In this document: positions 31,851 to 51,112 of the stretch, in pieces
How positions within the stretch are numbered: the stretch's first letter is position 1
Layout: each line of letters begins with the position of its first letter
From: Kiritimatiellia bacterium
Lineage (GTDB): Bacteria > Verrucomicrobiota > Kiritimatiellia > RFP12 > UBA1067
Reading direction: 5' to 3'
DNA: 64,000 bases
Assembly: GCA_017447805.1 (NCBI GenBank)
Contig: JAFSMR010000022.1
Coordinates: 62,001 to 126,000, forward strand
Notes under the pieces: generated by a model
Told to the model about the DNA's origin: nothing
Database searches by the model: none
What the model saw: the letters and a program-made list of their open reading frames with translations, nothing else
Program-made: the position numbers and the translations under genes

Positions 31851-31858
31851 ACCCCTAT

Positions 31859-31889
31859 ATTATACCATATTTTACCCCCCGAGCGCAAG
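31859..31889 (-). promoter_or_regulatory. Extended -10 promoter of secA
   Basis: CTTGCG, then TATAAT 21 bases after CTTG, preceded by ATATGG. Eight bases (ATAGGGGT) separate the -10 from the ATG, leaving little or no leader. It is back-to-back with the GH20 promoter at 31944-31974. Confidence 0.7.
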
Positions 31890-31943
31890 GGCTTAGGGAA
31901 CAATTTGCCTTATTCTAGGAACATAAAAAAGAAGCTTTCCCCC

Positions 31944-31974
31944 CTAGACTATTACGCCCGAAATATGATACAAT
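31944..31974 (+). promoter_or_regulatory. CTAG/extended -10 promoter of the GH20 gene
   Basis: CTAG (31944-31947), 21 bp, TACAAT (31969-31974) preceded by TGA. A leader of about 13 nt follows, with GAAGGGG as ribosome site. Confidence 0.65.
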
Positions 31975-31993
31975 ACCAAACGAAGGGGTCGTT

Positions 31994-33823: not shown

Positions 33824-33859
33824 TCGCGTCCCATAATCGCCCTGCTTCGCAATAATGAA

Positions 33860-33920
33860 TGACGAATGGTAGGGCGGCCAAAGCATGGCCGCCGTAGTCA
33901 CGGACGCGACAAGCGCGTCC
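33860..33920. repeat. GC-rich REP-like hairpins after the GH20 gene
   Basis: Two perfect hairpins: GGCGGCC-AAAGCAT-GGCCGCC (33873-33893) and GGACGCG-ACAAG-CGCGTCC (33902-33920). Related pieces (TGACGAATG, TAGGGCGGCC, GACAAGCGCG) recur at 60.9-61.1 kb. They may also end GH20 transcription, although no T run follows. Confidence 0.6.
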
Positions 33921-33959
33921 CTCCAGAAGCGATGCTGACATTAACTTGTGGCCATAAGG

Positions 33960-34185
33960 CTATCCTAGGCTATAAACAACCATTTGCTTTTCGATAATCA
34001 AAACTGAACGACGCAAAACAAGCGGTTGTTTTGCGATAATCAAAACTAAATATCCCAAAACAAGCGCTTGCACGGTCATAATCAGAACTGATTCTGGCAA
34101 AACAAGCGGTTGTTTTGCGACAATCAAAACCAAATATGGCAAAACAACCGCTTGTTTTGCCATATCTGAAATTGATTATGACAAA
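33960..34185. repeat. Tandem 42-bp repeat array with long palindromes (array 1)
   Basis: Four to five degenerate copies of a 42-bp unit on the minus strand, each centred on GCAAAACAA-GCGG-TTGTTTTGC, followed by an inverted copy on the plus strand. Perfect hairpins lie at 34013-34034, 34098-34119 and 34135-34166 (14-bp arms, loop CCGC). Read in frame, the unit gives a 14-residue repeat (KQPLVLPYLVLIVA type) on the minus strand. There is no ribosome site or family match, so it is treated as repeat DNA. Confidence 0.8.
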
Positions 34186-34227
34186 ACAAATGAATATATA
34201 TATTTATTCCCGTCGTTGGCGGGGAAT

Positions 34228-34382
34228 CCGCCACTTTTCTGGCGGCACTTGCGCGCCAGGGCGAAACCTCCGCCACTTTTCTGGCGGGGCTTGCGCGCCA
34301 GGGCGAAACCTCCGCCACTTTTCTGGCGACGCTTGCGCGCCAGGGCGAAACCTCCGCCACTTTTCTGGCGGGGCTTTTGCGG
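34228..34382. repeat. Tandem 42-bp repeat array (array 2)
   Basis: Four units start at 34228, 34270, 34312 and 34354, exactly 42 bp apart, each opening with the hairpin CCGCCA-CTTTTC-TGGCGG and continuing to GCGCGCCAGGGCGAAA. The sequence is unrelated to array 1 although the period is the same. Both strands can be read as a 14-residue repeat; no evidence of translation. Confidence 0.88.
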
Positions 34383-34480
34383 CGCCCCTCAGGCCGCCGT
34401 TCGGATGTTGATTTTTGCATGTAGAACAGGAGAAACAGGAGATTTCTTGTCCTGTGGGTTAATTAGCAGGTATAACATGT

Positions 34481-34534
34481 ATTCCCAACTTGGGAATTGT
34501 ATCAACTGGGAAAACAGGTCTTGTTTTCCCAGTT
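34481..34534. repeat. Two further perfect inverted repeats
   Basis: ATTCCCAA-C-TTGGGAAT at 34481-34497, and a 13-bp-arm hairpin AACTGGGAAAACA / TGTTTTCCCAGTT with 5-base loop at 34504-34534, followed on the plus strand by GAGTTTTTGGG. The second could act as a plus-strand terminator. The rest of 34383-34570 shows no gene. Confidence 0.6.
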
Positions 34535-34571
34535 TGAGTTTTTGGGGGCGAGCGATTGTGCTGTGAGGGCA

Positions 34572-34608
34572 TAAAAAACCGAAGGAGCCGCTTTAGCGGC
34601 TCCTAGGG
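34572..34608 (-). terminator. Rho-independent terminator of the giant surface gene
   Basis: AGGAGCCGC-TAAA-GCGGCTCCT stem with 9-bp arms, followed by CGG and six T on the minus strand. It lies 25 bases past the stop codon. Confidence 0.88.
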
Positions 34609-34632
34609 TTTGGAATCAAGCTTTATTTAAGC

Positions 34633-37600: not shown

Positions 37601-40600
37601 AGACAGGTCTCCTTGGCAGGCGCCGCCGCGAACGCAACTGCGCCAATCGCAAGCGCATTCTTATTCGCAACTGAGATCGTACCTTCGAAGCCGTCGGCGT
37701 CAATCGTGCCGATGGTGTAGTAGGCATAACGACCTGCGTTCGGATTGACCCAAGTGAAGTTCAGGTTATTCTTGCCTGTTATGCCAGACAATGCTGTAAC
37801 TTTGCCCGATTCCCAAGCGGTCTCGGTAGAAGAACCGTTGTTGAATGTAAAGTCGCTCACAAGGTTCAACGCAGGCACCATGCTGAAGTTACCGCCAAGA
37901 TGTCCCGTGAACGCGGCAGAGGTTCCAACCGAGGAATTGGCAGTGCCGTACGTGTTGAACGGGCTGGAAGAACCGCTCGCCGGAGTGAAGCCGAGAATGG
38001 TCGTGCCCGTCCAATCGGTGGAGTGATAGCCGAAGTTGCCGGTCGATTTGACCGCGCCGCCAGCAAACACAATCGTGCCGGATCCGCGCAGATAGTTCGG
38101 GCTGTACTTGCAGAGCATCTCAGCCGTGCTATCGACAATGGTGAGCTTGCCATCGACAATCGCACCGCCCTTGAACATCCAGGTCGAGCCGGAGCCAATC
38201 GTCACCTCGGCACCTTCGCCCACCACGAGCGACTTCGCAACAAAGTCCTTGCTGGTAGAACCGAACACGAGGCGCGTATTGGCCGTGTCGCTCGCCCAGT
38301 CGATGGAGCCGGTGAAACCGGAAACATCGCCCGTGAACTGGACATTCTTGTTATTGTTACCGGCGATGCCGATTGTGAGCTTTCCAGCGCCCGTGAACGC
38401 GGAAGTAATCACGAAGTTCTGCGCCGAGCCATAAGTGCCGTTGATCTTGAGGGTCGCACCATTGGCGATATCAAGCGTTCCGACGTTGTGGGCGCCGTCG
38501 CTATAAGAAGTATTATTGAGATAGGTCGCGCAGGTGCCACTATAGCGAAGCGTAGAGCCGCTGTTGCCGAAGTCGCCCATCCAATAGACCGGCGAAATCT
38601 GGTAGCAGTCCTTGAACTCGAATACGCCCTGCCATGCCGCATTTTTAAGAAGCGTCTTGAGGTTGGCAGAAGCATCGCTCGCGACAGTTCCCGTTCCCTT
38701 GCCGTCCATGACAAGCGTTCCCGTGCCAGCGAGCGCCGTAAGACCATCAAGCGCATTCATCGAAGAAAGGACGATTCTTACGCCATCGCCAACATTGAGC
38801 GTGCCAGCGCCAGTTACGGTGCCTGCAAAGGTGTATTCGCCCTGATCAATGTTGAGCGTCTTGCCAGCAGGAATCACGACATCTTCCACGCTGTCGGTAA
38901 GGAGCGTCACAGTGACAGTAGCGCCATCTTCCGCCGCCTCAAGCGCCGCATTGATCGTATCGTACTCGGTTTCGTCAACTTTGACCGAATTGCCGTGAAC
39001 GAGCTTTACATAACCCTCTTCTTCGTAGGAGGTATCGACATAAGTACCCTGCCCAAGCGTATACTCGAAAGAGGCAGGAACGATAAGCGCACCTTCATCA
39101 ACCCGCGTTACGCCCGTATAGGTGGGGGTTTCCGTAAGAGTCAGTGTACCAGCACCCTTCTTCGTGAAGCCGCTAGTCTTGCTGTTGCCGACAGCCGTCG
39201 CAAATGTGCGGTCAACGCCGCCATCGTCGACTACCGCCAACTTTCCGGCAGTAAACACAAATCCTTCAGAAGGATCCGCAGTCACTGTGTCGGCGAGCTT
39301 GAGCGTACCGCCCTTAAATGTTATTGTCGGGCGAGCTATGCCGGAAAGATCCGGATCGTCAATTTCGCACTCAGTAGTAGAGTTGCCACCTGGCTTATAA
39401 GGAACACGCACCGACGTGTCTGCCGTCAATTCCAGCACGCCATCGTCGATCTCATATCCAGTAAGACGCTTTCCGCTGAAAGTGAGCGTGGAAGAGCCGA
39501 CTTTCTGCAGTGTCGCACCTCTATCCTCAATCAAGCCGGCATAGGAGTTGGCGAAGAAGTTTCCGGTTAATTCGCTATCCTCGTCATCGTCATTGCCTAC
39601 CACCAGACGGTTGTGCTGGTAGTTGGTTTGGGTCGTGGAGAGCGTGACATAGCCATTGAGCGCCTTGAAATAGAATGTAGAACTACCTATCTCGAAAAGA
39701 CTGTTGCTGTTATTCGGCGTCCAAGTCATATTCGCATTGGTCGCCTTCGTGGACTTGAAAGCTACGCTATTGCGCCGATTGCTGCCCAAGCGTTCATAGT
39801 CGTCATAAACAAAGACGGAGCCAGAGTAGTTGCTCCAGTCATTTTCAACTGCCCAGGAAAGTCGCTGCCCCTTCACTTCCAGCGCACCAGAGCCAGACAT
39901 ATTTCCCAGCAATTTGAGCGTAAGGCCTGTGCTGCCACTATTCGCCCACTGTCCAAGGAACTGAGCCGGAGCCTCCTTGGAAGCATCAACGCGAATCGGG
40001 TTCTCGACTGTAATCGTCTGCTTGGATGTCCCATCCGTCGTGAAGCCGGAATTATCGCCGAGAATTACGAGACCAGAGCCGGAAACGGCGCTAGTCGTGA
40101 CTTCTTCCACCGTCCTATTCCAAACCTTGATCTTTGCGCCGGAGAACTTGACGTTACCGACCGCGACGATATTGGAAACGGTCTGCATTGACACAAGTTC
40201 CACATCCCAATATTCGTCATCGCCGGTATTGGCGGGGAAGACAACGGTCTTAGTCACATCGGGAAGCGAAGTTGCGACCGTATCGCCCACAGCCCAGTTC
40301 GCAACATTGCCCCAAGCATTGTCGCCTGCCGCACCTGTCCACTTAACAGTGTCGGTATTGGCGCTTACCGCCATGGTGACAGTGCCTTCTTCAAGCGTTA
40401 TTGCGGCAGAATACTGTTCGCGAAGGTTGAGGAAAACGAAATCTTCAACCGTTGCCTCAGTAGTGCCGGTAAGGGTAATGGTGGGCGAATCTCCTTCGCC
40501 ATAAGTGGAAAGGTCAATGGCCACTTTCGCACCATCCTCGACGACGAGATCTTTAAGCGTCGTGCCGGACGGAACTACGAGCGTGCCGGCGGAAACCTTG

Positions 40601-41796
40601 GTTGCACCCTTGTAGGCTGGAATCTCCGCGAGCGTCAGCGTACCTGCGCCGCGCTTCTCGAAACCACCCTCATTGGAACTTGCAAGCGCCGTAGCCCAGA
40701 CATGATCCGCACCCTCGTCATCATAGACGATATCAACATCCGACTTCGTGAGAACGCTCGAAGGATCTGCGGCCGTCTTTAGAACGCCGCCATCCTCGGA
40801 GAATTTGATTCGCTGGGGCAATGCCGCCTCGCTCGCGATTACCGCATTACCGCCACCGGCAATATCGAGAATCTGAAGCGCAGTTGCACCGAGCGTCAAA
40901 GTCGCCGTTTTCGCGACCCACTTGATCGTGTTGCGCGATCCGAACTTGCCGGCATTGCTTCCTGTGTTGCGAACGGTAAACGAACTATCTTGGTCTAGTG
41001 CACCAACTTCGAAATTGATATTAGTGGCAGTAGTCTTGTTCATCAAGTCACACTGCACTGCGCCCAACGAGTAAGCACCAGATTCATTGAACAGAGAATC
41101 GCTACAATAAGGAGCAACAGAGTCGACATTCAAGCGCCAAACCGCCTTTGCGCTCGTCGCAGAAGGAGCTATAAGATGGCTGTCGCGCTGCTGATGGTTG
41201 TTGCCGCTTAGATAGGAATAGATTTTAACCGTTCCTTCAAATTCGGAACCATCGCAACCTTCGCCATCAAACTTCACACCAGAGTAATTGTTGGTTTTAC
41301 CGGTACTGCTGGCGACAATTTGGCCCTTGCCGGTGAATTTTCCAGAAAGATGAATGCTCTTGCCCACAGCATTATGCAGGGTAAGGGTTTTATCCTGCGG
41401 AATGTCAACAGGCGCAGAAATCGTGACGCTGGAACCTCCAGCCGTAATGGTAACGTCATTGAATGTCACAACCGCCTCGCCGTCGATCTTCGACTCAAGC
41501 GTCATCGCGCCTGTGCCAGTGATGGCAACAGCCTGATTTGCCGTAATCGTGCCTATCGTCACGGCCGAATCGAGCGTGACAGCGGCATCTGCGGTATTGA
41601 AGATAGCCGTATCGCCAGTGCCAGGAGCGGCAGTTACTTCACCTGCTTCAAGCGACCAGTTGGCAAGCGTTGACCAATTTGCATCGTCTCCGCCCCCGGT
41701 CCATGTGTAGGTGGCGGCGAACGCGCCGAGGCCGAGAGCCATCGCACCTGCCAGCACGATAGGTTTCAGCCATGATTTTCTAGTTCGTTCTTTCAT
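34633..41796 (-). CDS. Giant autotransporter-repeat surface protein (adhesin-like)
   Basis: 2387 aa from ATG 41796, with AAAGGGAAAAG upstream. Signal peptide MKERTRKSWLKPIVLAGAMA, cleavage probably after GAFA. Two repeats of the type TWTGGGDDANWSTLANWS open domains (near residues 30 and 540). Autotransporter-associated beta-strand repeats such as KRGAGTLTLAEIPAYKGATK and KKGAGTLTLTETPTYTGVTR occur in the first half. Later, several 'YxTLxxAxxxAxxGDTVxLLxD' modules recur (for example SYLTLAAAIDNAQSGDTVKL). The fold should be a long right-handed beta-helix. There is no C-terminal beta-barrel, LPXTG or PEP-CTERM; the end is FYKVFVSVTPVDVPQE. Role inferred: surface adhesion or glycan interaction. 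It is more GC-rich than its neighbours. The 5' leader recurs in the island upstream. Confidence 0.85.
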   Translation of the reverse strand: MKERTRKSWLKPIVLAGAMALGLGAFAATYTWTGGGDDANWSTLANWSLEAGEVTAAPGTGDTAIFNTADAAVTLDSAVTIGTITANQAVAITGTGAMTLESKIDGEAVVTFNDVTITAGGSSVTISAPVDIPQDKTLTLHNAVGKSIHLSGKFTGKGQIVASSTGKTNNYSGVKFDGEGCDGSEFEGTVKIYSYLSGNNHQQRDSHLIAPSATSAKAVWRLNVDSVAPYCSDSLFNESGAYSLGAVQCDLMNKTTATNINFEVGALDQDSSFTVRNTGSNAGKFGSRNTIKWVAKTATLTLGATALQILDIAGGGNAVIASEAALPQRIKFSEDGGVLKTAADPSSVLTKSDVDIVYDDEGADHVWATALASSNEGGFEKRGAGTLTLAEIPAYKGATKVSAGTLVVPSGTTLKDLVVEDGAKVAIDLSTYGEGDSPTITLTGTTEATVEDFVFLNLREQYSAAITLEEGTVTMAVSANTDTVKWTGAAGDNAWGNVANWAVGDTVATSLPDVTKTVVFPANTGDDEYWDVELVSMQTVSNIVAVGNVKFSGAKIKVWNRTVEEVTTSAVSGSGLVILGDNSGFTTDGTSKQTITVENPIRVDASKEAPAQFLGQWANSGSTGLTLKLLGNMSGSGALEVKGQRLSWAVENDWSNYSGSVFVYDDYERLGSNRRNSVAFKSTKATNANMTWTPNNSNSLFEIGSSTFYFKALNGYVTLSTTQTNYQHNRLVVGNDDDEDSELTGNFFANSYAGLIEDRGATLQKVGSSTLTFSGKRLTGYEIDDGVLELTADTSVRVPYKPGGNSTTECEIDDPDLSGIARPTITFKGGTLKLADTVTADPSEGFVFTAGKLAVVDDGGVDRTFATAVGNSKTSGFTKKGAGTLTLTETPTYTGVTRVDEGALIVPASFEYTLGQGTYVDTSYEEEGYVKLVHGNSVKVDETEYDTINAALEAAEDGATVTVTLLTDSVEDVVIPAGKTLNIDQGEYTFAGTVTGAGTLNVGDGVRIVLSSMNALDGLTALAGTGTLVMDGKGTGTVASDASANLKTLLKNAAWQGVFEFKDCYQISPVYWMGDFGNSGSTLRYSGTCATYLNNTSYSDGAHNVGTLDIANGATLKINGTYGSAQNFVITSAFTGAGKLTIGIAGNNNKNVQFTGDVSGFTGSIDWASDTANTRLVFGSTSKDFVAKSLVVGEGAEVTIGSGSTWMFKGGAIVDGKLTIVDSTAEMLCKYSPNYLRGSGTIVFAGGAVKSTGNFGYHSTDWTGTTILGFTPASGSSSPFNTYGTANSSVGTSAAFTGHLGGNFSMVPALNLVSDFTFNNGSSTETAWESGKVTALSGITGKNNLNFTWVNPNAGRYAYYTIGTIDADGFEGTISVANKNALAIGAVAFAAAPAKETCLVKMSVAEGGKIYNIDGETKNEVAVGSILTTATVAGAASETKLMLGADGIYVAVASIGSTYYSSLQAAGEAALAADDHVFTVIDGTTSLPGWEYDSDAKTFTKVDVAQVGETKYLTLASAIATGTTDDIVLIADCAETVTLGEGQTIKPGTYAFSGVLKGAGTIYYAAKPTTVPTFEDWTGTFVADWEGAQGTPFPANDYGIEGSVVEVRKLAGGYVPIPGTENVDRTILPTVSIPEECTMKLNNGYSSTITTFTKLTGSGTLTIEGYTCYFNTLDNFTGTITAATNLNCKIVDIVTSATIAPGTCLVKGGTFTDVADTTVNGEAPSVALKVVTTGDDAGIYFAPVALIGTSYYNTLQEAVTAASATSSTKVLLVASTEGETATIPAPAAGGNVMFYIAANGNTLGTVNAPDGDYILTTATETVAIDSTDYEATKYQLVEAAAAVTVNDTRTLYGAAQMQQAVNAAIAGGLGATIEFVNGTDGSAYAAILTASGFTEENGVWTFTTSPVAKVTHGVIETSYLTLAAAIDNAQSGDTVKLVADVDVISTGLTFPAEKTVTFDLNGYTLTAGNGATSHVQVNGVVTITDSSEGAEGQIVSAEVGNYGLVQVAESNTQEGAALTIAGGTIEAYFPDTLNDDNQHPAYGVAIKGKDTVFNMTGGKVKAGLMAIMGHGSKASGGTYTISGGTIESVDDFAMYLPTKGGCSVTISGGTFVGQGAVSARAGTVTVTGGTFTASGDGVAPGSNPGTTGLGFMALAVTPNYAAVEVAVSGGVFTSATGVAAVGLVESTNAGSISLTGGTYSTDPSDYVASGYEATEDDGVWVVGEVTTTPIEPGVETPFDTAEDAANVTFKAPAAVEAEDKVDPTAYRALFKDEPTVIEKDGKFYSTYELKDTVVEAIVGAVAEPFDGDGTADLDIGALATNDKEVTVAAKPGLYYGVYTTGSLSTAFTASSCVMATGNTVALTFPKGGTTQFYKVFVSVTPVDVPQE

Positions 41797-41856
41797 GTAC
41801 TTTTCCCTTTCTTTGGTTATTGTTGATGTTTTAGTTACGAAAATTGGTGTTTCATC
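41762..41856 (-). repeat. Leader repeat copy A (5' region of the giant gene)
   Basis: About 95 bp from the stop codon of the DUF2442 gene into the signal-peptide codons of the giant gene. It shares most positions with copy B at 43802-43896; the best stretch is ACTAAAACATCAACAA. In copy A it supplies the ribosome site and ATG. Confidence 0.8.
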
Positions 41857-42109
41857 CTTGAGGATTAGATTCGAATACAGCGCGCTCCCATACTGATTCA
41901 GGAGCCACATCAATATTATCATCCCATACTACCGTTCCGTATTCAGCCCTTGCGGTTCTGAAAAATGTCGGTTCTTTCAATCGCAACCAGTATGGGTCGG
42001 AGAGTAAATAGGAGCAGTTAAACACACCCTTCTCGCCGGTGTCGAACTCGACGGCCACATTCAGACCGTCCAACGCTTTGGCTCTCTCGACTATATGTAA
42101 AAGTTCCAT
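41852..42109 (-). CDS. DUF2442 protein, likely partner of the DUF4160 protein
   Basis: 85 aa. Segments VAVEFDTGEKGVFNCSYLL and FFRTARAEYGTVVW match DUF2442. DUF2442/DUF4160 pairs are widespread and have been proposed as toxin-antitoxin-like modules; this is by association. Ribosome site AAAGG; it starts 16 bases after the DUF4160 stop. Its stop codon is also the first base block of leader repeat A. Confidence 0.85.
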   Translation of the reverse strand: MELLHIVERAKALDGLNVAVEFDTGEKGVFNCSYLLSDPYWLRLKEPTFFRTARAEYGTVVWDDNIDVAPESVWERAVFESNPQG

Positions 42110-42125
42110 TCGCTATAACCTTTCA

Positions 42126-42407
42126 TTATCTGACAAGTGGCGGTATCTCCGGCGGATTGATACCGCGCTTAAGCATCTCCCAGGCAGCCGCCAACTCTTC
42201 TTGATGAATTTCTATCCATGTCCTTATCCATCTAGCCTGTTTTTCAGGGAAACCACGCTTGCCGCAGGCAAACATCTTACCTGTGCAAGCATTGAAAGAT
42301 GCGGCGTATCCACTATACCATGCGTGAACATGCGGTCCTTTATGTCTTTCGCAATCCTCCTTTTCCATAGAAAGGATGATGCCAAGGAATGACGACAACT
42401 TAGCCAT
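42126..42407 (-). CDS. DUF4160 protein
   Basis: 93 aa. The core RHKGPHVHAWYSGYAASFN, with IEIHQEELAAAWEMLKRG at the C-terminus, is the DUF4160 pattern. The ATG overlaps the preceding stop (TAATG). Usually paired with DUF2442, as here. Function not established. Confidence 0.87.
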   Translation of the reverse strand: MAKLSSFLGIILSMEKEDCERHKGPHVHAWYSGYAASFNACTGKMFACGKRGFPEKQARWIRTWIEIHQEELAAAWEMLKRGINPPEIPPLVR

Positions 42408-42841
42408 TAGATAATGTTCCTTTCTTCTGCATCAGCAAAGGGAGCACGGGCAAGCTCGTCAGTCTTCAGCCATTTCTTTCTAGCTCGTTCCTTCAAGTAC
42501 TTATTCCATCCCAATTCGCCACGCAGTGAGTGGCGAATTGGAAATTCAAGAAAGAATTGTCGCATATACTTAAGATTTGAAACGCCAAATCCAGCGCCAA
42601 ATTCGCTTATCATCCTCTTGGAAAGTTCCAAAATCAATCCATCACCGTAATTTGACTTTGCCGAGCCCCCTTGCATGTCGACAATAGTTTTGCCAATCAG
42701 CCAATACGCTTCGACCATTGCGAAATTGACGGCTGAACGGACTCTCTCTCGGGCCGACACCATGATAGAACGCACTTCTTGATACAGCTTGGAGATTTCT
42801 CCTTCATTTATTTGGAGGCTATACGCCGTTTTTTCCTTCAC
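42407..42841 (-). CDS. Truncated YhcG/DUF1016 protein, N-terminal domain only
   Basis: 144 aa starting with GTG at 42841 behind the repeated AAAGGGGGTGCGGC ribosome site. Residues about 15-105 match the DUF1016 N-terminal domain (SARERVRSAVNFAMVEAYWL, GDGLILELSKRMISEFGAGF, NLKYMRQFFLEFP). The C-terminal PDDEXK nuclease domain of full-length family members is missing. After RHSLRGELGW the frame runs into a copy of the giant gene's leader (KYLKERARKKWLK) and ends. A perfect 12-bp inverted repeat sits at the break. Probably a remnant, though still in frame and translated. Confidence 0.75.
   Translation of the reverse strand: MKEKTAYSLQINEGEISKLYQEVRSIMVSARERVRSAVNFAMVEAYWLIGKTIVDMQGGSAKSNYGDGLILELSKRMISEFGAGFGVSNLKYMRQFFLEFPIRHSLRGELGWNKYLKERARKKWLKTDELARAPFADAEERNII
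42464..42503 (-). repeat. Leader repeat copy C (partial)
   Basis: About 40 bp, AAGTACTTGAAGGAACGAGC and onward, encoding KYLKERARKKWLKT. It matches copy B closely and copy A (KYMKERTRKSWLKP) well. Here it is fused to the truncated DUF1016 frame. Confidence 0.75.
42511..42541. repeat. Perfect 12-bp inverted repeat at the DUF1016 truncation point
   Basis: CCAATTCGCCAC-GCAGTGA-GTGGCGAATTGG. It marks the exact place where DUF1016 similarity stops and leader copy C begins, which suggests a recombination or insertion scar. Confidence 0.75.
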
Positions 42842-42942
42842 GCCGCACCCCCTTTCTTCTCGCCGTCTGTCTTTACTTCGAGACTTACATTTCCATCGCC
42901 TTCATAGACGATAATCTCCCTATGTGGAAGCATTTCGCTCAT
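42838..42942 (-). pseudogene. Internally deleted rhuM copy (34 codons)
   Basis: ATG at 42942 followed by the first 28 codons of rhuM (to VKTDGE) joined in frame to the last codons KKGGAA and stop. The 84 bp at 42858-42941 match 45042-45125 at 83 positions. The central part, about 160 codons in the full gene at 44551-45126, is gone. Its stop overlaps the GTG of the DUF1016 gene. It could still be translated as a 34-aa peptide. Confidence 0.85.
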
Positions 42943-43025
42943 GCCACGGGCCTCCTTTCGGCGTAGGAGAAAGCATCCGCCCCGGCCAAGGGCCTCTCGA
43001 ATACTTTGCTATATCTTTTCGTCAC
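42939..43025 (-). CDS. Possible 28-aa peptide
   Basis: GTG at 43025 behind a good AAGGAGAAAGCAA ribosome site; its stop overlaps the ATG of the deleted rhuM (ATGA). Sequence starts MTKRYSKVFERPLAGADAF. No family recognised. It may be a real coupling peptide or just a degraded gene start. Confidence 0.35.
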   Translation of the reverse strand: MTKRYSKVFERPLAGADAFSYAERRPVA

Positions 43026-43051
43026 TTGCTTTCTCCTTGGTGTCGTGTCGA

Positions 43052-43309
43052 TTAGTTTGCCTGGGCTTTCATGGAAGCGACGCCCCATCCTGTAGCGGCT
43101 CTATGGCGAACTCCGGCAAGTCTGGCCCTCTCGGCTATCGAATCGATTGTCTCTCCCGCGAAAAGCCCCTGTTGCCACTTGGTATAATCCATCTTTTCTC
43201 TATTTACATAGGATATGAAACGCTCGGCATCGACAGGCCCGACTGATTTTGTAAGAATATCAAGGCAATGGGCCCCTAGCTCGGTATCTGAAAGTCGTGT
43301 CTCATTCAT
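43052..43309 (-). CDS. Putative antitoxin partner of the PIN protein
   Basis: 85 aa, mostly helical and charged, with no recognised DNA-binding motif. It starts inside the last 8 bases of the PIN gene (ATGAATGA) with GGAGGCATCTT as ribosome site. The order is toxin first, partner second, the same as in the pair at 43891-44554, which also overlaps by 8 bases. Its role as antitoxin is inferred from this arrangement. Confidence 0.65.
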   Translation of the reverse strand: MNETRLSDTELGAHCLDILTKSVGPVDAERFISYVNREKMDYTKWQQGLFAGETIDSIAERARLAGVRHRAATGWGVASMKAQAN

Positions 43310-43742
43310 AAGATGCCTCCTGTGTAATAAAGGACATTGGATTGCCGATTGTCATATCGCCAAGCGTCTGAATCTTCTTTGTTATTCCTCTATCGGTAGT
43401 TATCAACCAATCGCAATGTGCAATCTCGGCGCTAGCGACATGTAAAGCATCCTTCGCTTTCAGTCCTAGTTTCTGCAATTCACGCTCTCTCTCTAGTACT
43501 TCGTTGGTCGAGCGAACATAGGCAACGGCATTACCCGCCCAAGACAAAATAGATTCTCTTCTTTCCAAGAAAGGATTTTCCGCAACCTCGCAAGTCAAGA
43601 TATCGGACCACACGTATTCAATCTTGCCCTCATGCATCATAGCCTGTATCTGCAACTTGGCTAACGCTTCAAGCGCAACCACCATATTGCCATGATTATC
43701 GAAAGGCCTGTTGTAACAGCAATTGTCAAGATAAACTCTCAC
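43302..43742 (-). CDS. PIN-domain protein (putative VapC-like toxin)
   Basis: 146 aa. The PIN nuclease pattern is visible: MRVYLDNCCYNRP (first Asp), SDILTCEVAENP, KAKDALHVASAEI (central Asp) and DWLITTDRGI (last Asp). Such proteins cut RNA, often tRNA or mRNA, and are neutralised by a partner. GTG start at 43742 behind AAAGGGGGTGCGGC, the sequence shared by other genes in the island. Overlaps its partner by 8 bases. Confidence 0.85.
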   Translation of the reverse strand: MRVYLDNCCYNRPFDNHGNMVVALEALAKLQIQAMMHEGKIEYVWSDILTCEVAENPFLERRESILSWAGNAVAYVRSTNEVLERERELQKLGLKAKDALHVASAEIAHCDWLITTDRGITKKIQTLGDMTIGNPMSFITQEASYE

Positions 43743-43801
43743 GCCGCACCCCCTTTCGTAAGAACGAACGGGGCGCGGGCCGTCGCGTCTGTCGGCGCGC
43801 C

Positions 43802-43896
43802 AGTCTTAATCCATTTCCTTCTCGTTCGTTCCTTCAAGTACTTGTTCCTTTGTTATGGTTGTTGATGTTTTAGTTTACGAAATTTGTGTTTCAAGA
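43802..43896 (-). repeat. Leader repeat copy B
   Basis: Begins at the stop codon of the 58-aa ORF (TGAAACAC) and parallels copy A through ACTAAAACATCAACAA to AAGTACTTGAAGGAACGAAC. The giant gene's ATG is TTG here. The frame is open to NKYLKERTRRKWIKTGA and on to KGGAA-stop, so it joins directly onto the AAAGGGGGTGCGGCGTGA block before the PIN gene. The 148 bp between the two PIN modules consist of this repeat and its tail. Confidence 0.8.
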
Positions 43897-44067
43897 TGCA
43901 ACTCGAGGCGTAATAGGATTAAGGCGACTTTGTTTCAAGCCTGCATTTCTGGCAAAATCCAATGCCTTGGCTAGAGCGATTTCAGGGATATAACCCGCCT
44001 CCCTGTTAAGACGCACGCGAGTCTTACGAATTTCTGCCACATATATATCGTCTTTCCGCTCAGACAT
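43891..44067 (-). CDS. 58-aa putative antitoxin
   Basis: ATG at 44067, ribosome site GGAGGTGGAAT, overlapping the PIN gene by 8 bases (ATGTCTGA). 58 residues beginning MSERKDDIYVAEIRKTRVRL, helical and basic. The arrangement duplicates that of the other PIN module although the sequences are unrelated. The stop codon is the start of leader copy B. Confidence 0.68.
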   Translation of the reverse strand: MSERKDDIYVAEIRKTRVRLNREAGYIPEIALAKALDFARNAGLKQSRLNPITPRVAS

Positions 44068-44554
44068 ATTCCACCTCCATCGCCTTCTCTGGCGTTAATA
44101 TCTTTGGGCACTCATATCCCGCGAATGCCACGACCGAAGCTGTCTTTGGCAAGGTAACCAGATTGGCCATGTGCTTGCAGTTCCATGTCAGCAATATATC
44201 CATTCCGTAAACTGCGGCCGTCGCAATATGAAGCGCATCAAGAGTCTCTTTCTCCGGTATAGCATGCTCTCTCAAAAGATCTTTTGCCAATGACAGTACT
44301 TGATCTTGAGCCCCAGCAAGCGATTCGTACCTCGATATTTCAGCCTTGCGCAATGCCGCTAGAGATCGGTTCCCATCCGCAGCTTCTTGGTAAACGAAAG
44401 GTGAAACATATATTTCGCAAAGCGGTGCGCGCTCGTTCCACCATTTTCTCGTCCACGCCTGTTTGACCGCGTGGTCGGGGTTTGTAGATGGCTTTGAAAG
44501 GAGCCAACTCCAAAAAGACGTTTCGCAATAAACTTTAAGTTTACCCTTCCTCAC
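44060..44554 (-). CDS. PIN-domain protein (putative toxin)
   Basis: 164 aa. PIN pattern: LKVYCETSFWSWLL (Glu at the first position where Asp is usual), EIYVSPFVYQEA, EKETLDALHIATAAV and GMDILLTWNCKHMAN. This is the subgroup in which a Cys/Glu pair replaces YxD at the N-terminus. GTG start at 44554, overlapping the rhuM stop, behind AAAGGGGGTGCGGC. Followed by the 58-aa partner. Confidence 0.83.
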   Translation of the reverse strand: MRKGKLKVYCETSFWSWLLSKPSTNPDHAVKQAWTRKWWNERAPLCEIYVSPFVYQEAADGNRSLAALRKAEISRYESLAGAQDQVLSLAKDLLREHAIPEKETLDALHIATAAVYGMDILLTWNCKHMANLVTLPKTASVVAFAGYECPKILTPEKAMEVEYV

Positions 44555-45126
44555 GCCGCACCCCCTTTCTTCTTGCCGTATGGCTTGGTGGGCACATCGT
44601 CATTATCGACACAGAATCCGATTCTGCGGCGGTTCTTGGGAAGAAGTGGCGGCGGCTCTGAAATTTGTTTTACTAGGTAATTTACTCCCTGTTCAAGTCG
44701 TTTTATGCCGTTTTCTGCAGCATCCATGCGCCGTTCAAGATTTCCGATTCGCTTTACCTCGTCAAACCGGTTCAGCAACATTTCTCGCAGCATCCTAGTC
44801 GCCCACTGGCGGAAACGAGTGCCTTGGACCGATTTTACGCGATAACCTACCGAAATAACGACATCAAGGTTATAATAGGCGACAGGGCGCCCGCCATCAG
44901 GGGAGGTTTTGTGCAAAATTTGCACATAACCCCCCTCCTTTGGAAGTTCACCCTCTTTGAACACATTGTTGATATGTTTAGTGACGACAGTACGGTCTCG
45001 TCCAAACAATGCGCATATCTGCTCTTGCGTAAGCCAAACCGTCTCGCCGTCTGTCTTTACTTCGAGACTTACATTTCCATCGCCTTTATAGACGATAATC
45101 TCCCTATGTGGAAGCATTTCGCTCAC
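44551..45126 (-). CDS. RhuM family protein
   Basis: 191 aa. RhuM/KilA-N-like features: ETVWLTQEQICALFGRDRTV, TKHINNVFKEGEL, YVQILHKTSPDGGRPVAYYN and FRQWATRMLREML. Family members are common in mobile and phase-variable loci; some act as Fic- or DNA-associated factors, with function unsettled. I chose the GTG at 45126, since AAAGGGGGCGCGGC precedes it and it matches the ATG of the deleted copy; the frame is open further upstream. First gene of the island operon. Confidence 0.87.
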   Translation of the reverse strand: MSEMLPHREIIVYKGDGNVSLEVKTDGETVWLTQEQICALFGRDRTVVTKHINNVFKEGELPKEGGYVQILHKTSPDGGRPVAYYNLDVVISVGYRVKSVQGTRFRQWATRMLREMLLNRFDEVKRIGNLERRMDAAENGIKRLEQGVNYLVKQISEPPPLLPKNRRRIGFCVDNDDVPTKPYGKKKGGAA

Positions 45127-45260
45127 GCCGCGCCCCCTTTCGGAAGAGGGGGTTTTCGAGGCAAAGCGATGCCCACACGCTGCGGCGCTAGTCTTTTCTC
45201 TCTCTCTAGCTATCGCATTTGCCATCATCCGTTTCAAACTTTCACAAGTTTACACTGCGT

Positions 45261-45289
45261 ATTTTATCAAACTATCCACTCCGCGTCAA
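45261..45289 (-). promoter_or_regulatory. Promoter of the toxin/antitoxin-like island
   Basis: TTGACG, 17-bp spacer, TAAAAT with TGA before the -10. It lies about 135 bp before rhuM and back-to-back with the promoter at 45322-45350. No other clear promoter was found down to the giant gene, so the whole island and perhaps the giant gene may be read from it. Confidence 0.7.
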
Positions 45290-45321
45290 GGGGGAATGTT
45301 AGTTTTTTACGCGCTCACCCC

Positions 45322-45350
45322 TTGTCGACTTCAGACATATTTGGTATAAT
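45322..45350 (+). promoter_or_regulatory. Promoter of the triple winged-helix gene
   Basis: TTGTCG, 17-bp spacer, TATAAT preceded by TGG. Its -35 is 32 bp from the island promoter's -35, so one bound protein could control both. Confidence 0.75.
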
Positions 45351-45378
45351 ACTGCAAAATTTTATGGGGATATACGCC

Positions 45379-46383
45379 ATGAAGGACAAAGTAGAAGAAA
45401 ATAATGTGCCTGAATCTTATAGATGGTTTAAGATCAAACCTGGATGTGTTTCTATTTTGACGATAACAAATACAGCGAAGTTCATTCTTGCGGGAATCAA
45501 AAAATATGGTCGAATTACAGTATCTGAAATCAGCGAATCGCTCAACATTCCTCAAACATACGCATACAAAACAGTTACCGCGCTGAGAAGAGCAGGCTAC
45601 TTGAAACGTTCTGCATCCAATAAGACTCCCGAATGGGAAGTTGTGGGAGATTTCAATTTCGATGATACCATATCATTACCGGATATCATCAACCAGGCAA
45701 AAGAAAATCAGACTCGAACAAGAAAGCCTTCTACGATAAAATGCGAAATAGCAAATAAGATTATAGAACTCCTCTCAAAAAACAAATATGCCACATTAGT
45801 GACTATGGGCGAACATGTTGGCTGCTCGCCGTCTGTAGCATACAAATATATTCGAGCACTATATGTATTAGGCATTTTACGACGCGTCGGCAGCTCTAAG
45901 GACGGATATTGGGAAATCAAAGAAGACGCGCCAAAATTTACCGAGGATAAAATCGAGGTTTTCTTGGATAAAGCCCCTAATTGGGAAGAAGCAGAAAAAG
46001 GCGAGAATGAAGACCCCAACAAAATATGCATATTGATAAAATGCAAAATAGCAAATAAGGTTTTGGACTTCGTCGCAAAAACCAAGAATGTCTCATTATC
46101 GACTTTAAGCGCATATCTGGGCAAATCCGAGTCGGTAGCTTACAAATATCTTCGGGCATTAGTCGCATTAGGCAACATTGAGCGCGTTGGAGGCATACAA
46201 AAAGGTTGTTGGAAAGTCAACAAAAACGTCCCGAAATTGGCTGGCGAAGCAGTTAATGTTTATATAAACAAATCCTCCAATACGAAACAAGAGGATAATC
46301 CAAAAGCGCCTGATAAAGGGAAAACCAGCGCTTCAAAGAAGAAACAGGCTGCGAAGTCTAAGGCAAAGCCGAAAGCGAAGTAG
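45379..46383 (+). CDS. Three-fold winged-helix DNA-binding protein with lysine-rich tail
   Basis: 334 aa. Three tandem winged-helix domains of about 65 residues start near residues 25, 125 and 225. They share a pattern: (I)ANK-helix, then SVAYKYIRALYVLGILRRVG or its equivalents AYAYKTVTALRRAGYLKRS-like and SVAYKYLRALVALGNIERVG, and a wing ending in W-E/K-V. The C-terminal 25 residues are Lys/Ala-rich (KKKQAAKSKAKPKAK), like histone H1-type tails. I do not know a named family with this layout. Start ATG 45379 has GGGGA upstream; an ATG at 45364 is also in frame. Divergent from the island, so it is a candidate regulator of it, or a nucleoid protein. Confidence 0.78.
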   Translation: MKDKVEENNVPESYRWFKIKPGCVSILTITNTAKFILAGIKKYGRITVSEISESLNIPQTYAYKTVTALRRAGYLKRSASNKTPEWEVVGDFNFDDTISLPDIINQAKENQTRTRKPSTIKCEIANKIIELLSKNKYATLVTMGEHVGCSPSVAYKYIRALYVLGILRRVGSSKDGYWEIKEDAPKFTEDKIEVFLDKAPNWEEAEKGENEDPNKICILIKCKIANKVLDFVAKTKNVSLSTLSAYLGKSESVAYKYLRALVALGNIERVGGIQKGCWKVNKNVPKLAGEAVNVYINKSSNTKQEDNPKAPDKGKTSASKKKQAAKSKAKPKAK

Positions 46384-46415
46384 GCGCGGGGCGTCTAAGG
46401 ACAGCCGCCAAACTA

Positions 46416-46814
46416 TCATTCGGAAACTGGGCGGCGTAGCGCCTTTTTCTCTGAGTGGATGTGCTTGGCTTCAAGCATTTTTTCTTTTTGACGGCGCGAG
46501 CGCCGGCGCTTTTGCCGGCGGATTTTCTCTCTCGCCTGCTGCGCGGCGGATTTTATGCCCGCCTCGCGCTCGAGAATTATTTCTGCAAGGCTCCGCCTCG
46601 CGAGCCAGCGGTTTGTTTCGCGGCTTCTCGTTTCGCCGCATTTTACTTGAAGATTCTTGGCTGGATAATCCAGCCGGACGACCGAGGATGTCTTGTTGGT
46701 CTTTTGTCCGCCAGGCCCACCCCCCAGGATAAACGATTCTTCGATATCCTCTTCGCGCAAATCAGCTTCAGCCATTAGCGCTTTAATCGCGGCGATTTTT
46801 TCTGGTGAAATCAT
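46416..46814 (-). CDS. Peptide chain release factor-like protein (RF-1 domain, ArfB/PrfH type)
   Basis: 132 aa. It contains the GGQ peptidyl-tRNA hydrolysis loop in ESFILGGGPGGQKTNKTSS and the basic C-terminal tail (REKIRRQKRRRSRRQKEK), as in stand-alone ribosome-rescue factors. No codon-recognition domain. The ATG at 46814 fits the usual N-terminus (ISPEKIAAIKALMAEAD) and overlaps the DUF2062 gene end by 32 bases; the ribosome site is weak. Confidence 0.85.
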   Translation of the reverse strand: MISPEKIAAIKALMAEADLREEDIEESFILGGGPGGQKTNKTSSVVRLDYPAKNLQVKCGETRSRETNRWLARRSLAEIILEREAGIKSAAQQAREKIRRQKRRRSRRQKEKMLEAKHIHSEKKALRRPVSE

Positions 46815-47331
46815 GGGGTTGTATCGTGTGCGGCGCTTTTTTCGCCTTCCTGCGCTCAAGCGCGACGCGATAAGATAAAACTGCGCGCCGCGAAAAGAAA
46901 AACATGATTGGTGAAAGTATAATGCCGAGCAATACGCCACCGATGAAGAAGCTTGCAATTGTTCGACCGGCTAGAACTTTCACCGCTTGCCACGTCCATT
47001 CAGATGGCATCTGCGGGTTGGAAGCGAAGAGGATTCTATGCACGACCCACGTCTGCGCCGGATAGATGAAAAATATGGTAATGGGATTCGTTATGAATGT
47101 TCCGAGCGTAGCGCCGAGTTTGCTCACGCGTGCGATTACAGAAATGGGAACAGATATAATCAGCTGAAAACCGAACGGTATTGCGCAGCCGACGAACATC
47201 CCTAGCGCCCAGCCGGCCGCAACACGATTCGCGCTCATTTTTTCGCGCACCATCTTGCCGCGCATTAGGCGCCAAAACGCCTTCATGCGCTTTATCGTCA
47301 GACGCGATTTTTTCGCCGGGCCTTTCGCCAT
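46783..47331 (-). CDS. DUF2062 membrane protein
   Basis: 182 aa, two to three membrane segments. The core ANRVAAGWALGMFVGCAIPF and NPITIFFIYPAQTWV match DUF2062. Function unknown. Start 2 bases after the DUF1015 stop. Confidence 0.88.
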   Translation of the reverse strand: MAKGPAKKSRLTIKRMKAFWRLMRGKMVREKMSANRVAAGWALGMFVGCAIPFGFQLIISVPISVIARVSKLGATLGTFITNPITIFFIYPAQTWVVHRILFASNPQMPSEWTWQAVKVLAGRTIASFFIGGVLLGIILSPIMFFFSRRAVLSYRVALERRKAKKAPHTIQPHDFTRKNRRD

Positions 47332-47333
47332 AC

Positions 47334-48530
47334 CTATTCTACTTGATGGATAAACAGACCTGAACGCAGTTTTGGTTCGAACCAGGTGGATTTCGGCGGC
47401 ATTATTTCACCCGCATCCGCAATGGCCATCATTTCTTCGACTGTTACGCTTTCCATCGAAAACGCTACGGCCGCTTCGCCGGAATCGACTTTGTCTTCAA
47501 GGGCTTTTTCGCCGCGAATTCCACCCATGAAGAAAATCCTCTCATCCGTTCTTACATCGCCAATACCGAGAATCGGGCCAAGGAGATGATCTTGCAGATA
47601 AGAAACATCGAGCTTTGAAACTACGCTGCCTTCCGAGGGCAAATCCCAGCTCAGAGGAATCCATTTGCCATTGAGATACATACGGCAATTTCGCTCGCCC
47701 TTCTCGCCAACTTTGAAGAAAGAAGAAATCTTTGCCAAAAACTCCTCTTCGCCTAGGCCTGCCAAATCTTTCACGAGCCTATTGTAAGGAAGAATTTTCA
47801 GCTGATTTGCCGGAAATGCGACTGCCAGGTAGTAGCGGCTTTCGCCTTCGAAATCATGCTCGCGCGCATAACGCGAAGCTGCCGCAGAGCGATGGTGACC
47901 ATCTGCGATATATGCAACTTTTATTCGCGCAAAGAGTTCTTCGATTTCGGAAGCTGCGCAGCTGTTTTCGCCGCCGATTTCCCACACTGTATGAATAATG
48001 CCATCTGGCGCTGTAAAATCATAGAGAGGAGCGGCCTTGCAGGCCTCGCGAACGAGTTCATCTATCGCCTTATCTTCGCGATAGGTCAAAAACGCCGGTC
48101 CCGTGTGGGCTTTAAGGATTTCGATGTGGCGCGTTCTATCATCCTCTTTATCCCTGCGAGTCTTTTCGTGCTGTTTTATGACGCCGCCGAGATATTCCTT
48201 GGTATCAAATACGGCTACGATACCTGTTTGCGAATGCGAACCCATCTGCTGGCGATATGCATAGAAGCGCCTTTCAGCGTCTTTAACAAGCACCCCGCGC
48301 GCCATGAGAGAATCAAGCGCGCTCTTCGCCGCTGCGTAGGCTTCTGGCGAGGAAGGGTCTATCCCCTCGGGCAAATCGATTTCAGGACGCGATACATGAA
48401 GAAAGCTCTTATCGTTATTGCCGGCAATCGCTTTGGCTTCTTTTGTATCAAGTACATCATAAGGTGGAGACGCGACTAGTGCCGCGTCTTCCTTGTTTGG
48501 CCTCACGGCCGCAAATGGTCTTATCAACAT
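47334..48530 (-). CDS. DUF1015 family protein
   Basis: 398 aa, the usual family length. N-terminus LIRPFAAVRPNKEDAALVAS, core HTGPAFLTYRE and AYIADGHHRSAAASRYA, and terminal MPPKSTWFEPKLRSGLFIH are characteristic. The ADGHHR block looks like a ParB/Srx-type phosphotransfer site, but no activity is established for this family as far as I know. Follows the surface-repeat gene by 15 bp. Confidence 0.9.
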   Translation of the reverse strand: MLIRPFAAVRPNKEDAALVASPPYDVLDTKEAKAIAGNNDKSFLHVSRPEIDLPEGIDPSSPEAYAAAKSALDSLMARGVLVKDAERRFYAYRQQMGSHSQTGIVAVFDTKEYLGGVIKQHEKTRRDKEDDRTRHIEILKAHTGPAFLTYREDKAIDELVREACKAAPLYDFTAPDGIIHTVWEIGGENSCAASEIEELFARIKVAYIADGHHRSAAASRYAREHDFEGESRYYLAVAFPANQLKILPYNRLVKDLAGLGEEEFLAKISSFFKVGEKGERNCRMYLNGKWIPLSWDLPSEGSVVSKLDVSYLQDHLLGPILGIGDVRTDERIFFMGGIRGEKALEDKVDSGEAAVAFSMESVTVEEMMAIADAGEIMPPKSTWFEPKLRSGLFIHQVE

Positions 48531-48545
48531 TTTCTTGCTACTTTA

Positions 48546-49136
48546 TCAAAAGCCGACATTGAGAATCGGCATAAACTGAAACTGCGCCGAGCGAATTATG
48601 TTCACGAGGCCTACCTGGAAGCCATACATTTCTTCGCAACGGTTGATGACGCCGGCTTGAATGCCGGAAACATCGCTCGCTACATTTACTAGACCTGCCT
48701 GAATACCGCTTATATACCCAGCTTCATTCCAAAGGCCGACCTGAATCGCCAATGCATCTGCCTGGGTAATCGAGTTGTAGAGACCAACCTGAATGCCGGC
48801 GCCGCGATCTTTGACGTCATTGCGAATGAGATTAAGCTGGATACCCTCGAAATACTGGCTACGGCCCCAAAAGCCGAGGTCGATACCTGTAACGCTCTCT
48901 TGCTTCGTGGAATAAGGTATTGTAATTCTCAATCCCACGAGGTCTGGCGTTTCAGGATACTCATAAATCGCGAAAAACGCCGGCCAATCGGCAAACTGAC
49001 GATTTTGCGTATCGTTCGCTACAGTCTTTTCTTCGGGCGTATCAAGATTCACATCGGAATCCGGAAGGCTTGCTTCCTGTGCGAAAATCGCTGCCGAAAG
49101 GACGGCAGACATTGCGAATATGGCTAGCTTATTCAT
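48546..49136 (-). CDS. LA_2272-type surface-repeat protein
   Basis: 196 aa with Sec signal (MNKLAIFAMSAVLSAAIFA). The C-terminal half contains repeats of GIQVGLYN / GIQAGLVN / GFQVGLVN type spaced by about 20 residues (residues 110-185), typical of LA_2272-like surface or outer-membrane proteins of Spirochaetes, Bacteroidetes and PVC bacteria. Function unknown. Confidence 0.85.
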   Translation of the reverse strand: MNKLAIFAMSAVLSAAIFAQEASLPDSDVNLDTPEEKTVANDTQNRQFADWPAFFAIYEYPETPDLVGLRITIPYSTKQESVTGIDLGFWGRSQYFEGIQLNLIRNDVKDRGAGIQVGLYNSITQADALAIQVGLWNEAGYISGIQAGLVNVASDVSGIQAGVINRCEEMYGFQVGLVNIIRSAQFQFMPILNVGF

Positions 49137-49170
49137 TACTTTTTACTCCTAGTGCGACTTTACGGTGATA

Positions 49171-49199
49171 ATTATAATATTTTTTTCGGAATAATGCAA
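49171..49199 (-). promoter_or_regulatory. Promoter of the surface-repeat/DUF1015 operon
   Basis: TTGCAT, 17-bp spacer, TATAAT on the minus strand. Leader about 30 nt. Confidence 0.7.
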
Positions 49200-49202
49200 G
49201 CG

Positions 49203-49697
49203 TCAACTTACTGTAACTTTTTTTATTACGATTGCTTCTTCGGGCACATTTTCGTAATATCCGCGTGTTCCTGTAGCAACTTTTGCGATTTCATCCACTA
49301 TATTCATGCCATCTACGACTTTCCCGAATACGGCATAGCCGAATCCGCGCGGCGTCGGCGAGGTGAAGTCGAGGAAATTATTGTCCACGAGGTTGATAAA
49401 GAACTGACTCGTTGCGCTATCGACGACGGCCGTGCGCGCCATTGCGATCGTTCCGCGCAGATTTCCCAAACCGTTCATCGCTTCGTTGCGAATAGGCTCG
49501 CGAGTAGGCTTCTGATTCATGTCGCGAGTAAATCCGCCGCCTTGAATCATGAACCCATCTATTACTCTATGGAATATGGTATCGTTGTAATGACCGTCTT
49601 TGGCATACTTGACGAAGTTGGCAACGGTAAGCGGAGCTTTTGCCTCGTCTAGCTCAAGGGTTATTGTTCCTTTGGTAGTTTCTAGAACCGCCTTCAT
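49203..49697 (-). CDS. ppiB: Peptidyl-prolyl cis-trans isomerase, cyclophilin type
   Basis: 164 aa, cytoplasmic (no signal). Active-site segments [37 protein letters not shown] and [18 protein letters not shown] are intact. Start overlaps the gatA stop by 4 bases; last gene of the tolB-like/gatC/gatA run. Confidence 0.95.
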
Positions 49698-51112
49698 TTC
49701 ATGATCTCCTCAAATGCTTTAGATATATCGAATAATTTAGCTTCCTCGAACGAGCCGCAAATTAGCTGCACGCCAACCGGTAGCGCCGGGCGTTCGGGAG
49801 AAGCTTTTGTGAATCCCGCCGGCACGCTTGAAGCGCAAACTCCGGCGAGCGATGAAGGAATCGTAAAGAGGTCGTTAAGATACATCGTCAAGGGATCCTG
49901 CACTTCACCGGCTCGAAAAGCCGGCGTAGGCGCGCAAGGCGTAAGGATCGCATCGACTTTGGAAAACGCTTCTTCGAAATCGCGGCGAATCAAGGTTCTT
50001 ACTTTCTGCGCGCGGCCGTAGTAGGCGTCGTAATAACCGCTCGAAAGAACATAAGTTCCCATAATTATGCGGCGTTTGACTTCCGGGCCAAATCCTTCCG
50101 CACGCGAACGGGTGTAGAGAGAATAGACATCTTGCGAACGCGCCGACCTATGGCCGAATCTAACGCCATCGAATCTTGCGAGATTGGCGCTTGCTTCTGC
50201 CGGCGCGATAATATAGTAGACGGCCATGGCGTATTCGGCATGCGGAAGCGATATCTCGACAATTTCCGCGCCATTCGCGGCGCATTTTTCGATCGCTTCT
50301 TCGGTAATGCGCTTTACTTCGGGGTCGATACCGTCTAATTCGCGGTATTCTTTGACAACGCCGATTTTCTTGCCTTTCAATGTCCCGGCTTTGGCCGCGG
50401 CGAGATAATCGGGCACTATCTCGCGGGGAGTCGTTCCATCCATTTCATCTTTGCCGGCAATCGCGCCGAGCAAAATCGCTGCGTCGTCCACGCTCTTTGC
50501 AAGCGGGCCGACTTGATCGAGGGAGCTTGCGAAGGCTGTTACGCCAAAGCGGCTGACGCGCCCGTAACTCGGCTTCACGCCAACGCAATTGCAGAAGCTT
50601 GCCGGTTGGCGGATGGAGCCGCCGGTATCCGTGCCAAGCGCTGCTATGCAAAGATTTCCGCCGACCGCCGCGGCGCTGCCGCCCGAGCTGCCGCCAGGGA
50701 CTCTCTCCAAATCGTATGGATTGCGCGTCTTGCCGAGAGCCGAGTTTTCCGTCGACGATCCCATTGCAAATTCATCCATATTCACTCTGCCGGCAGGAAT
50801 AAACCCGTTTGCCTTCATGTTCTTGATGACTGTCGCATCATAAGGCGAAATGTAGCCCTCGAGAATCTTCGAGGCGCATGTGCAAGGCTGGCCGACGACA
50901 TTAATCAAATCTTTTACGGCAATCGGCACCGATTTCGGGTTTTCGTCGGCCATCTTGAGAGCGGCCTCTTCATCGAATGTAAGATATGCGCCGACTTTCG
51001 TATCGTAAGCGTTTTTCCTCGAGATTATCGCCTCGACTATATCGCGCGATTTGATTTCGCCCTTCTCCAGCAAGGCTCTAGCTTCACATATTCCAAGTTC
51101 GTAAAGTTCCAT
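49694..51112 (-). CDS. gatA: Glutamyl-tRNA(Gln)/aspartyl-tRNA(Asn) amidotransferase subunit A
   Basis: 472 aa. Amidase signature with the Ser-cis-Ser-Lys triad: Lys in [10 protein letters not shown], glycine/serine loop [18 protein letters not shown] and nucleophile segment [14 protein letters not shown]. It releases ammonia from glutamine to amidate misacylated tRNA. gatC lies 10 bp upstream; gatB is not in the window. Confidence 0.96.

Follow-up and report, generated by a model that had tools for sequence, protein, structure and literature searches.

A winged-helix gene divergent from a toxin/defence-type island

Back to back with an island of RhuM- and PIN-type genes, the window (the whole 64,000-nucleotide stretch of DNA analysed here) carries a gene whose product is predicted to consist of three winged-helix (wH) units and a basic tail. 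This raises the question of what such a protein was assembled from and what it might do beside the island. The gene, here termed P0001, occupies positions 45379..46383 of the forward strand and is a 334-amino-acid open reading frame (ORF) running from the ATG at 45379 to the stop codon at 46383. A second in-frame ATG is found at 45364. Because this codon lies only ~7 nt past the inferred transcription start, 45379 is preferred as the start. The ORF contains no frameshift, and the gene has its own promoter-like site, its own start and its own tail.

The GC content of the gene is 40.2%, compared with 51.7% in a 391-kb sample of the same genome, and only 4 of the 336 crude gene calls in that sample have values of 40.2% or less. 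The low GC suggests acquisition, and on the basis of this atypical composition the gene was likely acquired.

Three winged-helix units and a basic tail

The domain composition of P0001, with three wH units of one cassette type followed by a tail, can be assigned with high confidence. Pfam wH models match three stretches of the protein, the best being HTH_IclR (PF09339; 49.9 bits against a cut-off of 22, E 2.7e-13), and HTH_11 also matches (E 9e-12). An AlphaFold2 model, for which the underlying alignment is deep over the second unit only, contains three wH folds with block pLDDT values of 88-98 over residues 31-90, 121-190 and 221-270. We designate these units D1 (residues 27-90; 45457..45648, + strand), D2 (residues 118-182; 45730..45924, +) and D3 (residues 220-282; 46036..46224, +). 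The N terminus (residues 1-23) is disordered in the model, as is the C-terminal lysine/alanine tail (residues 305-334; 46291..46380, +), with pLDDT below 50 over residues 300-328. The wH units, linkers and tail account for the entire chain in the model, and no catalytic domain is recognised anywhere in it by Pfam.

Charge is distributed unevenly along the protein. The pI is 9.2-10.0 for the wH units, drops to 4.3-4.8 in the linkers and rises to 10.2 in the tail, and the net charge of the whole chain is about +23. A lysine-rich, disordered C-terminal tail is likewise a feature of linker histone H1 and of HP1BP3. Tails of this kind are rare in the 391-kb genome sample, where a composition of at least 17 lysines plus alanines in the last 27 residues, including at least 8 lysines, occurs in 1 of 336 crude gene calls, which is P0001 itself.

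The three units are not equally similar to one another. D2 and D3 align with a score of 200 (shuffled mean 27, maximum 47 in 500 shuffles) over ~90 residues, which points clearly to an internal duplication. D1 is the weaker repeat, with scores of 66 against D2 (shuffled maximum 49) and 57 against D3 (shuffled maximum 51). Both D2 and D3 carry the exact motif SVAYKY(I/L)RAL, whose counterpart in D1 is TYAYKTVTAL. Thus, an earlier note on this DNA was correct in describing three wH units, this motif in two of them, and a lysine/alanine tail. In an alignment with the IclR structure 1mkm the motif falls on the recognition helix, where both show the pattern aYKy, and it therefore belongs to that wH class rather than being new.

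Over 80 aligned codons, D2 and D3 differ at 35, 16 and 32 sites in codon positions 1, 2 and 3, respectively, and dN (0.42) is lower than dS (0.65). This pattern supports a translated, moderately constrained protein in which both copies look conserved at the protein level, although purifying selection between the two units appears to be only moderate.

The units match a C-terminal cassette of Fic and ATPase-like proteins

In related genomes, the sequences most similar to P0001 are found at the C termini of other proteins rather than in regulators. Among 40 ORFs that host this C-terminal wH cassette, 16 carry HATPase_c_4, 12 carry SLFN_AlbA_2 and 11 carry Fic domains, and many of the others are cut or short. 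The last 60 residues of the cassette proteins share the pattern RR(V/I)G-x-x-K-x-G-(H/Y)-W-E-V. The tryptophan of the wing is kept in D1, D2 and D3, and the pattern R-x-G-x-x-K-x-G-x-W is best preserved in D2 (RRVGSSKDGYWEI). A profile built from 33 cassettes with the query excluded matches all three units, with E values of 1.4e-7 for D1, 1.2e-14 for D2 and 5.8e-7 for D3 at a search space set at 60,000. Thus, P0001 is built of this cassette.

P0001 shares the cassette with proteins such as those encoded at loci L009, L074 and L092, but it departs from them in layout. They carry a single copy, occasionally two, at the very end of what is commonly a catalytic protein, whereas P0001 has three copies and no catalytic domain. 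In 131 other distinct ORFs, a sample biased by having been found via the cassette or the query, there is one copy in 127, two in 4 and three in none. The cassette ends a median of 2 residues from the C terminus, and 127 of these 131 ORFs end within 10 residues of it; in P0001, 53 residues follow D3. None of the 131 has a tail like that of P0001. One of the four two-cassette ORFs (L072, from Bacteroidia) has 201 amino acids and two wH units, making it much shorter than the otherwise similar 567-amino-acid ORF of L074; its start is presumably DUF4062-like. In many Fic and ATPase proteins, including those of L009, L027, L034 and L074, the cassette is preceded by low-complexity linkers (MSGK, KTTQ, KSTL or KSRE repeats), which are possibly variable in length.

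No full-length homologue of P0001 was found in the samples searched, which overlap from genome to phylum. The protein's own genome yields itself and eight partial matches (26-32% identity, best E 0.002). There are 41 matches at E≤1e-3 in 114 genomes of the family, 5 at E≤1e-6 in 345 genomes of the class and 4 in a sample of 387 genomes of the phylum, each count including P0001 itself. The best other match in the family (E 4e-13, genome G018) falls on an ATPase-like protein, in which it covers two cassettes. Single-sequence searches likewise recovered no full-length homologue in 19 stretches of genome_contigs or 4 stretches of viral_contigs, and the phage and plasmid collections gave no match. 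A profile scan returned 9 loci from viral_contigs and at least 593 stretches from genome_contigs, where the best 80 of at least 192 relatives were taken, such that triple-wH proteins beyond these 80 may have been missed. In the literature searched, no bacterial protein combining three wH units with an H1-like tail is described, although this does not prove that none exists. Overall, P0001 appears to combine familiar parts in a new way.

Comparison with known families and structures

The earlier note could not assign this architecture to a named family. This holds for the protein as a whole, which fits none found here, but not for its units, which are wH domains of the IclR/HTH_24 type and correspond to the Fic/SLFN_AlbA_2 cassette. 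The best 25 of the 27 Pfam families matched at E≤1 include neither Fic (PF02661) nor SLFN_AlbA_2 and HATPase_c_4 (PF04326 and PF13749). The IclR effector-binding domain is absent from the Pfam families listed, and the AlphaFold2 model leaves no room for it. P0001 therefore falls outside the Fic and SLFN_AlbA_2 proteins and is not a complete IclR protein, because the other defining domains of those families are missing. It shares with the IclR family (1mkm) its best Pfam model and the recognition-helix alignment, but it lacks the effector domain and has three wH units per chain. A match to the Csa3/CARF regulators was rejected, since the wH part alone matches and scores 34.7 bits against a cut-off of 60.2 bits for TIGR01884.

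Structural searches lead to a similar picture. Foldseek, which the earlier note had proposed as a check, recovers tandem wH proteins but no good whole-chain match (TM-scores about 0.12-0.21). As these scores are low, no structure fits the entire array well, and the matches say only 'tandem wH'. The top matches of individual units are Z-alpha domains (D1 with 4kmf, Z 10.2, rmsd 1.2 over 62 residues; D3 with 4wcg, Z 9.1, rmsd 1.4 over 61 residues), but MarR/ArsR-type structures are tied within 1 Z unit, and Z-DNA binding by P0001 is not favoured. Helix 3 carries tyrosines, and in a hand alignment to ADAR1 residues the tyrosine of the AYK motif falls one turn N-terminal of the Z-alpha position.

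A published description of the Fic protein CbFic2 of Coxiella burnetii offers a parallel (PMC10628234). CbFic2 is a DNA-binding protein with a C-terminal wHTH that has structural likeness to Z-alpha, and it resembles the P0001 units in this respect. There too the tyrosine is one turn N-terminal, and the protein binds 20-bp double-stranded DNA at ~220 nM without driving it into the Z form. Removal of the HTH does not lower the DNA affinity (PMC10628234), and thus the cassette's own contribution is unproven in CbFic2. CbFic2 differs from P0001 in that it combines just one wH with a Fic enzyme domain, which P0001 lacks.

HP1BP3 is described as having three H1-type globular wH domains, an acidic tract and a basic C-terminal domain (PMC4344522). 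In this description, HP1BP3 and P0001 have in common three wH domains that arose by duplication within the protein, acidic stretches and a C terminus that is basic and disordered. However, HP1BP3 and linker histone H1 are eukaryotic and unrelated to P0001 by the sequence searches done. Since the best 25 of 27 Pfam families include no linker-histone model, the likeness is an analogy of layout. That it reflects bacterial convergence on the HP1BP3 plan, with a defence-enzyme cassette having given rise to a chromatin-like, mobile silencer of toxin and defence islands, is a speculative extension of this analogy that we consider very unlikely.

The divergent gap and the neighbouring island

The claim that the two promoters lie back to back, with -35 boxes 32 bp apart, is borne out to the extent that both sites are found. 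The promoter-like site of P0001 (TTGTCG-17-TATAAT, with an extended -10) is at 45322..45350 on the + strand, that of the island (TTGACG-17-TAAAAT) is at 45289-45261 on the - strand, and TG precedes the -10 box in both. A scan of 1.7 kb gives 5 promoter-like sites versus 3.0 +/- 1.9 in shuffles, and the promoters are thus plausible, but not statistically established. No significant operator-like repeat is present in the divergent gap, where the one palindrome with 6-bp arms (45236-45251) is matched by 42% of shuffles.

The divergent neighbour is a RhuM-family gene (44551..45126, - strand; PF13310, E 9.7e-15). Its ORF remains open as far as a TTG at 45237, and its GTG start at 45126 lies after a leader, GAAAGGGGG(T/C)GCGGC, that directly precedes the GTG of four island genes (42838-42856, 43739-43757, 44551-44569 and 45123-45141, all on the - strand). 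When the whole genome is searched with up to 3 mismatches allowed, the four perfect copies all fall in the island, and one further site has 3 mismatches. These identical ribosome-binding leaders suggest that the island may have grown by recombination at gene starts. The leader is absent before P0001, which therefore looks like a separate unit.

The remainder of the island (41852..44554, - strand) encodes DUF2442, DUF4160 and DUF1016_N proteins, an 85-amino-acid ORF and two PIN proteins by Pfam. Several of its pieces are repeated, namely the start of the RhuM gene (42858-42948 and 45042-45132, 97% identity), a DUF1016 piece (42454-42507 and 43795-43848) and a further segment (41820-41854 and 43859-43893). 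To judge from its sequence, this is a rearranged toxin/defence-type island. It is bordered by a gene (34633-41922) for a 2429-amino-acid protein with passenger-associated transport repeats (PATR). No RNA families are found in 30000-50000. The window scan reveals no tRNA gene near the locus, and thus no tRNA-integration signature is seen.

RhuM and cassette genes share variable regions, although tight pairing is rare. In 60 genomes of the genus, with the window's RhuM protein as query, at least 15 of 82 RhuM matches have a cassette match within 10 kb (2.8 expected), at least 4 within 3 kb (0.84 expected) and at least 3 within 1.5 kb (0.42 expected), where the expectation assumes uniform placement and matches in one island are not independent. 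With PF13310 as the query, the values are at least 12 of 72 within 10 kb (2.4 expected) and at least 2 of 72 within 3 kb (0.74 expected). These counts exclude the window's own pair, and the run with the window's RhuM also excludes the island's 34-residue RhuM fragment. Conversely, RhuM is present in 9 of 128 cassette loci, some less than 1 kb away, although these loci are short and the count has no control. In the neighbourhoods fetched (6.4-18 kb) for the closest RhuM relatives of the genus, there is no P0001-like gene; several contain single-copy cassette ORFs at various distances. The RhuM-relative loci compared show no DNA similarity to 45260-46383. The link of P0001 to the island is therefore weak, and so is the support for the earlier note's suggestion that P0001 could silence the island.

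Downstream of P0001, an RF-1-domain gene (46416-46958) is convergent with it across a 32-nt gap. This gene is found in 56 of 61 genomes of the genus. Among the downstream neighbours listed for 29 cassette loci (L042-L070), the genes vary. The RF-1-domain gene may border a recurrent insertion spot. In G055:C133, G066:C165 and G095:C31, it has a RhuM gene at distances of 2.4, 3.9 and 9.3 kb, respectively, amounting to 3 of 82 RhuM matches within 10 kb (0.56 expected). As called, the RF-1-domain ORF overlaps a DUF2062 ORF (46783-47331). In many relatives the RF-1 match is inside an open frame of ~300 codons or more, and thus the two ORFs may be fused there.

A possible local repressor and its alternatives

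From what is known of wH domains, an array of this kind would contact DNA at several points, and the tail would add non-specific affinity. We tentatively favour the reading that P0001 is a stand-alone, multi-site DNA-binding protein acting as a local repressor, to which we give a little less than an even chance. In this reading, three copies of the C-terminal wH cassette make up the protein, D2 and D3 being internal duplicates of each other, and the basic, disordered tail follows them. The three units on acidic linkers, together with the tail, could allow one molecule to engage DNA at multiple positions while showing modest sequence preference. Such a protein might bind the divergent gap (45237-45379), which is AT-richer, as well as DNA close by, and when bound could damp its own promoter and possibly that of the RhuM island as well.

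P0001 could instead be the remnant of an SLFN_AlbA_2/HATPase or Fic protein whose catalytic part has been lost, leaving a wH array that serves no selected function or at most still binds DNA residually. Two-cassette proteins do exist (4 of 131, including the short L072), and the partial RhuM and DUF1016 repeats show that the adjoining island has been rearranged. However, P0001 has no recognised catalytic domain, has its own promoter-like site, start and tail, and is free of frameshifts. Three copies with a 53-residue extension are also unlike a simple deletion of a known architecture, and the codon-position pattern of D2 and D3 points to constraint. We therefore judge decay unlikely. An RNA-binding role like that of the tandem wH domains of SelB is the least credible of the readings considered; SelB arrays are among the best Foldseek matches (1lva, E 7.8e-4; 2uwm, with SECIS RNA), but their whole-chain TM-scores are low (about 0.18) and the sequence matches are to DNA-binding units of the IclR, MarR and Lrp type.

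Two further alternatives retain DNA binding and differ in its reach. By analogy with HP1BP3 or TrmBL2, the wH units and tail might coat or bridge DNA as a genome-wide nucleoid protein. The layout parallels HP1BP3 (PMC4344522), and TrmBL2 (5bpd), described as an archaeal wH protein that coats DNA by forming filaments (PMC4877046), is among the structural matches, although its whole-chain similarity is low and its domain composition different. P0001 was nonetheless found in one genome only, with no full-length relative in the 114 family genomes or the wider samples searched, and thus is not a core nucleoid protein; a nucleoid role is accordingly quite unlikely. It is similarly doubtful that P0001 serves the RhuM/PIN island specifically, as its regulator or antidote, by binding a specific operator in the gap. 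RhuM has been proposed as a toxin domain, often fused to Doc (PMC3710099), which would suit such a role, as would the divergent promoters 32 bp apart and the excess of shared neighbourhoods at 10 kb. Among the matches listed, however, only 3 of 82 lie as close as 1.5 kb (0.42 expected), and a devoted regulator is also at odds with three negative results: no P0001-like gene in the 6.4-18 kb stretches covered around the closest RhuM relatives, no island leader before P0001 and no operator in the gap.

In P0001, the cassette thus occurs without its enzyme, in triplicate and with a histone-H1-like tail, an arrangement absent from the 131 other cassette ORFs examined. If it binds DNA as we infer, the protein would provide a small model for how tandem wH domains and a disordered basic tail can act as a bacterial silencer, and it would also bear on the role of the cassette in Fic-type defence proteins.
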